Source: Candidatus Dojkabacteria bacterium (GTDB taxonomy: Bacteria > Patescibacteriota > Dojkabacteria > J137). Taken from it: 35,832 nt of DNA. Within the stretch, counting starts at the first letter, position 1; every line of letters starts with the position of its first letter. Both the position numbers and the translations under genes were made by a program. The stretch is taken from the NCBI GenBank assembly GCA_030950485.1, contig JAUZRK010000026.1, positions 1-35,832 of the forward strand. Reading direction: 5' to 3'. Below the pieces are notes generated by a model. The model was not told where the DNA came from. It did no database searches and saw nothing but the letters and a program-made list of their open reading frames with translations. This document shows positions 5,183 to 10,620 of this stretch, in pieces.

Positions 5183-6817
5183 TTATCCAATACCAATACT
5201 CGCAATCTTATCCCTGTCGGTATGACTAAAGTTTTCTGGCAGGATAATAAAGTCTGTCATTTCAGGAATATCCATAATTCTTGAGAACATTTGAATATTT
5301 ATCGTCAGATTATCTGTTCGGGTATCTGCATCCATTGGATCTGCGTTAGGCCCAATACATATAGCGTTTAATATTCTCCTAATCGATGTATTTGCCTGAA
5401 GAAACAGACTTTGAGAAAACGCATTTGATAAGATAATCTCACTTAAAATTTCATCACTTGAGTATTCAGTTAGAAACTCATTAATCATTGTCTCTTCTCC
5501 TGCAAGGTACCTTACTAAAACATCATACTGATCTCCATAGAATTCAAAGCCAGTAAGAACAGATAGATAGTTCGAATTTACTCTTGCATGTAACTTGTAA
5601 AGTATTGCATCTCTAGTTAGCATTCTACTGAATGTACTTACATTTGATACATCATAAGCAAATACTTCTGTACTATCTCCATAAACTATGGTTCCCCAAT
5701 CCCTAATTCTATTTACATCTACACTAATAAAGTTCTCAGGATATATATTTATTGAACTTTCAGAAGAAATTTGGATATCAAGCTCCAGCATATATACTTC
5801 TATTAGATCTTCAATAAATGTATCACTATTCGGATTTATAATTATCCTATTCTCTAACCCAAAATATTTCAGTGAATCTTGTGTAAGTTGTAATTCGTCA
5901 GGGTCAACAAATAGTATGTTATTAAATGCATTGATAGTATCTTCTGGATTTGCTTCGAAGAAATCGGCAGGCAAAATGTCTTGAAGAATTATCCACGCTA
6001 CTTCAGAACCAGAGTATCTTTCCATTAAAGAGGGGGATTCAATTGTCTGAGCATCTATATACCACTGTAATACATCGTTAAATTCTTCTTCAGTATATTC
6101 TATATTCTCGGGAATCGAATTTTCGTAAATATCAGATAAGTCTGCTGTAAGGAAGGCAGGCGTACCATTTGAATTAACCATACCTGTAAGTAATGGATAG
6201 TCACGATCATTAATTCCCAGTGTAGCTGCTCTAGTATCTCTTACATTTTCTGCAAGATATGATAGAAAATATATACCACTATCTTGAGTAGCATTACCGG
6301 TATTAATAGATTGTGAAAACGCATATGTCTCTCTACTACCTTGAATTAAATTATCAGCAGCACTAAATTCAGTAGCATTTAATAAAAGACCAAATCTTAC
6401 TATACAAGCAAGGGTATCTCCTCTAAATATATTTAAGGCTAATTGATCTCTCATTTCTAAAGCATCTACTCCAGGTAATTCTCTTACCCCGGCTAATGCT
6501 TCTATAATACTTTGAATAGAACTATCAATAGCTAGATTATTTGTCCTATAGTAGCTCATAGAGAAATCAAGATTATCAGATCCTGAAGCTGCTATAAAAG
6601 CTACTTCTGCTAATATTGTAGTTGAATACTCGTTAGACCCGTCTAGATTTACCAATTCTGCATTTTCTATATCATCTTCATTCCAAAGCATTATGATCGG
6701 GTTGCCTGCATGAATATATTGAATTACTCCATCAGTATATTGGCTACTATCTTCAATAGCTAATAACTGATCGTTTCTAGACTCAACTGAGAAATGAGCT
6801 TGTAATTTATGACCTAG
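5183..6817 (-). CDS. C-terminal part of an interrupted putative zinc metallopeptidase
   Basis: This frame is open from 6817 down to a TAA at 5183-5185 and is in the same frame as the fragment at 6818-7270; only a TAG codon (6818-6820) separates them. The first residues after the stop are LGHKLQAHF, and the last residue before it is His, so the join reads H-stop-LGH, the HExxH zinc-protease motif with the catalytic Glu codon replaced by amber. A Glu in TILAEVAF about 70 residues later could be the third zinc ligand. The rest (about 450 residues) is unknown, with no membrane segment. An internal ATG at 6691 (502 residues) is a possible but unlikely start because it leaves out the motif. The peptidase assignment rests on one motif. 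Confidence 0.6.
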   Translation of the reverse strand, partial: LGHKLQAHFSVESRNDQLLAIEDSSQYTDGVIQYIHAGNPIIMLWNEDDIENAELVNLDGSNEYSTTILAEVAFIAASGSDNLDFSMSYYRTNNLAIDSSIQSIIEALAGVRELPGVDALEMRDQLALNIFRGDTLACIVRFGLLLNATEFSAADNLIQGSRETYAFSQSINTGNATQDSGIYFLSYLAENVRDTRAATLGINDRDYPLLTGMVNSNGTPAFLTADLSDIYENSIPENIEYTEEEFNDVLQWYIDAQTIESPSLMERYSGSEVAWIILQDILPADFFEANPEDTINAFNNILFVDPDELQLTQDSLKYFGLENRIIINPNSDTFIEDLIEVYMLELDIQISSESSINIYPENFISVDVNRIRDWGTIVYGDSTEVFAYDVSNVSTFSRMLTRDAILYKLHARVNSNYLSVLTGFEFYGDQYDVLVRYLAGEETMINEFLTEYSSDEILSEIILSNAFSQSLFLQANTSIRRILNAICIGPNADPMDADTRTDNLTINIQMFSRIMDIPEMTDFIILPENFSHTDRDKIASIGIG

Positions 6818-7270
6818 CTAATGGAATAGTACAATAATACTTGTTCTATTTGTCGGTAGATATATATTTTCATCTAAGACACATCCTCCAGTACCTGAGC
6901 CACAAATACCTGTAACGCTATCTAAGAAATAAGTTCTGTTTAGTGTATCTAAAACGAGTTCTCTCATTCCTGGAAAATCATCTATATTATATAGTGAAAC
7001 GTAATACCCATATAATATAGCTAATGAATCTTCTATTGATATTTCTAAGGTTTCACTTAAAGACTGAATATTATTATTTTGTATACCAAGTTGAAAGCTT
7101 TCGTATGCTGTCCCTAATTCTATAGATGGAGCAGTGATTTCATTATTAGTAATGTTTCCGAATTGTACTCCAAGTTCAATAAAGGCTTGTTGTCTTTCTT
7201 GTTCATCTTCTATATATAATCCTAGCTCGTAGAGTCTATCTTCGTATGTTTGCTCAACATAAGTAGACAC
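6818..7270 (-). CDS. N-terminal part of the interrupted putative metallopeptidase
   Basis: 150 residues from a GTG at 7270 to a TAG at 6818-6820. It is acidic and helical, with two Cys (ICGSGTGGCVLDE) before the NRTSIIVLFH that precedes the amber codon. The frame stays open upstream of the GTG to a TAA at 7325-7327, and six codons before that is an in-frame ATG (7343-7345), five bases from a -10 box. So the original gene may begin at 7345 and carry two in-frame stops. No signal peptide is visible. The reading frame is otherwise intact across both fragments, with no frameshift, over about 720 codons. Confidence 0.6.
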   Translation of the reverse strand: MSTYVEQTYEDRLYELGLYIEDEQERQQAFIELGVQFGNITNNEITAPSIELGTAYESFQLGIQNNNIQSLSETLEISIEDSLAILYGYYVSLYNIDDFPGMRELVLDTLNRTYFLDSVTGICGSGTGGCVLDENIYLPTNRTSIIVLFH

Positions 7271-7350
7271 ATCAGCAGGTCTGCAATTAGAAGAAGTATC
7301 CTCAATTATAGTTGTAACGCACTCTTATGCTGGTTGATCTGCCATCTTCT

Positions 7351-7359
7351 ATTATACCA
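7351..7359 (-). promoter_or_regulatory. Extended -10 promoter (TGGTATAAT), possible leaderless start
   Basis: Read on the minus strand the sequence is TGGTATAAT, a near-perfect extended -10. The ATG at 7345 lies 5 bases downstream, about where transcription would begin, so a message from here could be leaderless. It drives the interrupted metallopeptidase gene. Confidence 0.6.
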
Positions 7360-7479
7360 TGATTATATAGTTTGTCGCCAGTTTAAGATGACCCGATATG
7401 CTGAATACTATAAATGTATCTGAGCAGTTCTTAACTGTCAATACTTTTAAAATCACTCAATCAAATATATAATCTCCCT

Positions 7480-9906: not shown

Positions 9907-10022
9907 GAAAGTAAGAAATAAATTAAGAGCTGGTGTTTTTTAGCAAGCAGAAGAGTGATTTTACAGGTAATAATATGTTAAGACTCGCCAAGTTTTGGCA
10001 ATATTTATTATATAAAAAATTT

Positions 10023-10229
10023 ATGAGTGATAATCAACAAGATTTCAATCCAGAAACAGGAGATGAAGAGTTTTATAAAAATATAGGGTTGGAGATGGAT
10101 AATGATAAAAGTACTGTTAGTCCTTCTGGCTTAGGGATAGTTACGGATGTGCTTTTTAGAAGATATAGATACTCAACCCTTAAGCCAATATTCATTAGAG
10201 GATTATTCAATACATATGCCTTTAGATAA
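10023..10229 (+). CDS. N-terminal fragment of a frameshifted hypothetical gene
   Basis: From the ATG at 10023 the protein begins MSDNQQDFNPETGDEEF and is acidic. The frame is open further up to a GTG at 9933, but the ATG follows an AT-rich TATTATAT element and is the better start. After GLGIVTD the frame turns basic and ends at 10229. The frame one base on continues as an acidic, plausible protein (next entry). Removing one T from the run at 10153-10157 joins the two. I do not recognise the product. Confidence 0.55.
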   Translation: MSDNQQDFNPETGDEEFYKNIGLEMDNDKSTVSPSGLGIVTDVLFRRYRYSTLKPIFIRGLFNTYAFR

Positions 10230-10620
10230 ATTAAAGTATGAAATAAAGTTGGTAAATAATAATTTATTGACTGATATTTTTCTCTCGGTTTCAAAAACTG
10301 ACAACTCAGGAGAAAGAATTCGAGTAGTATTAGATGAAAGAATAGATAGAAGAACAGAACTCAATAACGGTCAGTTAATTCGATTATATAAAGACATCGA
10401 GAAGCTTAAAGACGAGGACAACCTTACTATTATTAATGATTATTTAAAAATAGAACTTGAAAATTTTCAAGATAAATTTCTAGGACCTCTATACGATACT
10501 TTTGTAATGTTTAAAAATACGGAAATGGCAAGCTTAGTTGTTGATGAGAAAAGGAAAAGGGTAGAAAGATCAACAAGACAAGATGACTTATTTGAAAAAA
10601 TCTTATATCCTGAATCGTAA
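10147..10620 (+). CDS. C-terminal part of the frameshifted hypothetical gene
   Basis: 157 residues in the frame +1 to the preceding fragment, overlapping it by 83 bases. The natural join is GIVTDVLLEDIDTQPLSQ, made by one T less at 10153-10157; the joined protein would be about 198 residues. It is helical and charged, with KLKYEIKLVNNNLLTDI and an amphipathic C-terminal half; no membrane segment. The ATG at 10147 is probably accidental. Whether the shift is an assembly error or real cannot be decided from one sequence. Confidence 0.65.
   Translation: MCFLEDIDTQPLSQYSLEDYSIHMPLDKLKYEIKLVNNNLLTDIFLSVSKTDNSGERIRVVLDERIDRRTELNNGQLIRLYKDIEKLKDEDNLTIINDYLKIELENFQDKFLGPLYDTFVMFKNTEMASLVVDEKRKRVERSTRQDDLFEKILYPES

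Follow-up and report, generated by a model that had tools for sequence, protein, structure and literature searches.

Three described systems bear most closely on the locus presented here: bacterial nonsense pseudogenes, the HExxH zinc metallopeptidases (zincins), and the pyrrolysine/amber recoding systems. A nonsense pseudogene is recognised by a coding-like frame in which coding signal both precedes and follows an in-frame stop, and this is what is observed here, with the stops lying in an open, codon-biased frame, with many other such stops in the same genome, and with none of the 42 stops counted genome-wide falling in conserved codons. The locus differs from such pseudogenes in that one stop stands at a likely catalytic residue, and in that no parent family was recognised. 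Its resemblance to the zincins lies in an H-x-L-G-H sequence that follows the hydrophobic run TSIIVLFH, and in a Glu within ILAEVAFIAA, ~70 residues downstream of the motif, that could be a third ligand, whereas the codon expected to encode Glu is a stop, a Lys follows the motif, and no profile matches the protein. With the recoding systems it shares an in-frame TAG inside a coding frame, but here TAG is an ordinary stop, and neither a tRNA-CUA nor a PylS above cut-off was found.

The window, i.e. the whole stretch of 35,832 nucleotides that was analysed, is contig C19 of a source genome (G000) represented by a draft assembly of 1.41 Mb in 30 contigs. The interrupted frame within it is most likely an orphan pseudogene: a lineage-specific accessory gene that lost its function only recently, carries two nonsense codons, and is one of dozens of accessory genes in the genome broken by a stop or a frameshift. 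The two nonsense codons, a TAA at codon 7 and a TAG at the motif, would stop translation of the accessory gene, the full-length product would be absent, and promoter, codon bias, and the remainder of the frame would so far have stayed intact, the loss being recent. A single orphan pseudogene matters little, and the pseudogene load of the genome is the better observation. In CPR genomes, a high coding density has been taken to mean that pseudogenes are few (PMC9166423); if this is a Patescibacteria/CPR genome, as its size, GC, and gene content suggest, 42 frames cut by nonsense codons would be unusual, and would indicate that the lineage is still losing genes.

The interrupted frame and its probable start

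The minus strand between positions 7324 and 5183 holds a 713-codon frame cut by a single TAG at 6820-6818, after which 544 codons stay open until a TAA at 5183-5185, in agreement with the same-frame continuation of ~545 codons proposed in the first-pass annotation. The codons around the TAG, CTA TTC CAT TAG CTA GGT CAT AAA, read L F H stop L G H K, so that the stop does stand, as had been claimed, exactly at the Glu position of an HExxH-like motif. Codon usage is coding-like on either side (0.203 bits/codon before the TAG and 0.211 after, with open reading frames of more than 300 aa averaging 0.255 bits/codon, sd 0.096), while the remaining five frames of the region score at most 0.005 bits/codon and contain 32–84 stops. 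The features of the gene are as follows.

7351..7378, minus strand: promoter-like sequence GCGACA-16-TATAAT, 10/12 matches, with an extended -10 element (preceded by TG) that lies 5 nt upstream of the ATG
7343..7345, minus strand: probable original start ATG, leaderless type, opening MADQPA, assigned from its frame and the promoter spacing
7325..7327, minus strand: TAA at codon 7, probably the first of the premature stops, amid coding-like codon scores (+5.65 over the 25 codons from 7351)
6821..7324, minus strand: N-terminal stretch of 168 codons ahead of the TAG, ending in TSIIVLFH, from sequence and codon usage
6818..6820, minus strand: TAG that separates His from LGH, the second premature stop, from sequence
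6809..6823, minus strand: HxLGH motif region, a putative former HExxH zinc-binding motif
5183..6817, minus strand: C-terminal stretch of 544 codons after the TAG, plus TAA, without a recognised domain

The first-pass annotation had described an N-terminal fragment at 6818-7270, and its end at the TAG stands, but its start at GTG 7270 does not, with coding-like codons extending upstream of that GTG as far as an in-frame TAA at 7327-7325 that had been overlooked. Six codons ahead of this TAA, and in frame with the main reading frame, lies ATG 7345 (MADQPA). Consensus promoter sites taken alone are not above chance in the region of the promoter-like site (12 found versus 14.8 expected); genome-wide, a TATAAT 5–8 nt before an ATG is enriched, occurring at 48 of 858 starts (18 at a distance of 6 nt and 16 at 7 nt) compared with 1–3 per spacing closer to the start or just beyond, with TANNAT found 6 nt before 64 of the 858. 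Since, in addition, only 2.7% of starts in the source genome are preceded by a Shine-Dalgarno-like stretch, leaderless mRNAs appear to be common in this organism, making ATG 7345 the best candidate for the start and probably the original one. As this start precedes the TAA at 7327-7325, two premature stops probably lie within the gene, the TAA at codon 7 and the TAG at codon 176. Two lesions in 720 codons, with no frameshift, argue against advanced decay.

An in-frame ATG at 6691, 42 codons past the TAG, opens a C-terminal reading frame of 502 aa that is long and coding-like, and it could be proposed that the stops are real while a part of the gene still works, either through this C-terminal product or through an N-terminal piece of 150–168 aa made separately. 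This is improbable, with the coding signal running unbroken through the 42 codons before ATG 6691, a restart there discarding the motif region, and the probable first stop lying as early as codon 7.

The HxLGH motif and the identity of the protein

His is rare in the interrupted frame, with six among 713 residues, yet two of these flank the TAG at HxxxH spacing. The probability of finding HxxxH around a random codon of an interrupted frame is 2.4e-4, with ~0.01 such cases expected over 42 stops, and for this reason the motif is more than noise, although it was picked out post hoc. HExxH itself is not encoded in the present sequence, which holds H-TAG-LGH in place of a Glu codon. By codon usage, Glu accounts for 14–20% of the single-step origins of a TAG, the other main sources being Tyr, Lys, Trp, and Gln; the surrounding motif raises the odds of Glu, and in our judgement this was rather probably the residue lost. 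A former zinc-protease Glu at the TAG is a reasonable guess, and HELGH a plausible candidate for the ancestral motif, judging by the HxLGH spacing, by the hydrophobic stretch ahead of it, and by the possible downstream Glu. The Lys that follows HxLGH is atypical, and the PROSITE zinc-protease pattern excludes Lys at this position. The protein was perhaps formerly a zinc metallopeptidase of the HELGH type.

Profile searches returned no peptidase family in Pfam (up to E 10), NCBIfam, or PHROGs, and no other family model in these libraries matched the protein. Homologues were likewise absent from the source genome itself, from 57 relatives, 86 genomes of the class, and 380 of the phylum, and from collections of genome contigs, viral contigs, phages, and plasmids. 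A 63-aa match to another open reading frame of the source genome was rejected as spurious, and a search of PDB sequences with the piece after the TAG gave chance matches only. Single-sequence folding, with the stop read as Gln wherever the sequence had to run across it, gave a mean pLDDT of 35–36, too low for a usable model. Because no homologue was found, loss of function is not demonstrable by comparison.

Reading of TAG in the source genome

The first-pass annotation had offered several explanations for the TAG, of which an inactivating mutation is the likely answer, while amber readthrough with an inserted residue finds no support. Readthrough or recoding, with an amino acid placed at the TAG so that the whole protein is produced, would suit a frame otherwise open for 713 codons and a stop at a motif position. 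TAG is however an ordinary terminator in this genome, ending 257 of 811 open reading frames of at least 200 aa, and genes resembling both release factors are present, with an RF1-like gene at C13:2611-3636 (391 bits, E 1e-117, slightly under the curated cut-off, 423) and an RF2-like gene on C12 assigned from a weaker match. The CUA-anticodon suppressor tRNA that the annotation had proposed looking for was not among the 38 tRNAs predicted by ARAGORN at default stringency in a genome about 92% complete, and PylS gave no match above cut-off, only sub-threshold matches such as are seen in most control genomes. Furthermore, the TAG that interrupts an MFS transporter of the same genome aligns with Trp in the three displayed homologues of solved structure (QacA-type and EmrB), whereas a Glu is wanted here, and a single inserted residue could not suit both sites; the TAA in the same gene would probably need to be read as well. 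On these grounds, namely the ordinary use of TAG, the presence of RF1 and RF2, the lack of tRNA-CUA and PylS in these searches, and the position of another TAG on a conserved Trp, amber recoding of the gene is very unlikely.

Loose ARAGORN settings produced many chance ‘CTA’ tRNAs, which were rejected as noise. The anticodon loop of a tRNA-like gene at C14:41685-41756 (L055, 1685-1756) is abnormal (ARAGORN ‘cgga’, Pro or Ser), and the gene is perhaps a decayed tRNA.

Interrupted frames across the genome

The genome was scanned for stops that have coding signal before and after them, counting a frame only where the 20 codons following the stop held no ATG; frames overlapped by better open reading frames were removed. 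At least 42 coding frames in the source genome are interrupted by an in-frame stop (29.8 per Mb), compared with 2 in 800 kb of the relative G003 (2.5 per Mb) and 3 in 263 kb of the relative G006 (11.4 per Mb) by the same scan, with the caveat that some of the 42 lack any recognised domain and are possibly not true genes. A scan of the source genome also found 23 frameshift-like breaks. All three stops occur among the 42, with TAA the most frequent (29 TAA, 7 TAG, and 6 TGA), a bias in the direction predicted for substitution; substitution would be expected to give ~48% TAA, 23% TAG, and 29% TGA, and the observed TAA share exceeds this simple model. At least 11 of the 42 stops lie inside recognisable Pfam domains, and the frames that hold them are broken genes, not operon junctions. 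The domains concerned, with examples of interrupted frames in the source genome, are listed below.

Cut by TAA: ABC transporter (L054:5054-6403), MarR, beta-lactamase fold, nucleotidyl transferase (L069:6276-7142), and GDPD
Also cut by TAA: 2-hydroxyacid dehydrogenase, RecQ DEAD domain (L042:11579-13792), and ParB-CE
Cut by TGA: SDR and Nudix
Cut by TAG: MFS transporter (L059:6640-8229)

With at least 42 interrupted frames in the genome, a stop on a motif residue becomes less surprising, and the placement of the TAG at the motif is most probably fortuitous, with 42 stops to provide the opportunity. The first-pass annotation had called a stop at the catalytic residue striking; the placement is real, but the surprise is weakened by these numbers and by the probable second stop in the gene. 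That all three kinds of stop in accessory genes are usefully read through, with dozens of accessory proteins, among them a protease silenced at its catalytic residue, made conditionally, is as improbable as amber recoding of the single gene.

A consensus or assembly error, in which the real population would have a sense codon in place of one or both stops, was also considered, given that the assembly is a draft in 30 contigs and that only two lesions occur in a long open frame. Conserved codons were defined by one relative only, as those whose alignment to G003 proteins reaches at least 40% identity, and comprise 99,212 of 392,142 coding codons (25%). None of the 42 stops falls in these codons (p = 7.5e-6), whereas uniform error would strike conserved genes too, and this favours real gene decay over uniform error. 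An error would also have to occur twice, independently, in one gene, and this explanation is accordingly unlikely, if less so than partial function or readthrough. By this measure of conservation, the interruptions appear confined to less conserved accessory genes. A separate BLAST check did place a few stops inside conserved alignments, e.g. in a ComM-like gene at C1:147770-149275. The interrupted gene of the window itself lies within a stretch, from 3764 to ~11.8 kb, that is absent between groEL and a Clp-like ATPase gene of G003.

The ComM-like (Mg-chelatase-type) gene contains two frame changes in addition to a stop, and is 47–72% identical to its G003 relative. Many conserved genes of G003 (L090-L129) are broken across reading frames, with 48 frameshift pairs in a pattern of long-read assembly errors. 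Because many conserved G003 genes are frameshifted in this manner, this genome is a poor control for frameshifts, and was used for nonsense codons only.

Two further observations concern other parts of the window. On the plus strand, two overlapping open reading frames in different frames, at 9933-10229 and 10147-10620, may be one frameshifted gene, with no homologue found in G003. Between 14531 and 17444 lies a run of predicted small membrane proteins with similar two-helix ends and a pilin or VirB2-like appearance, which sits in an apparent type IV secretion-like cluster.
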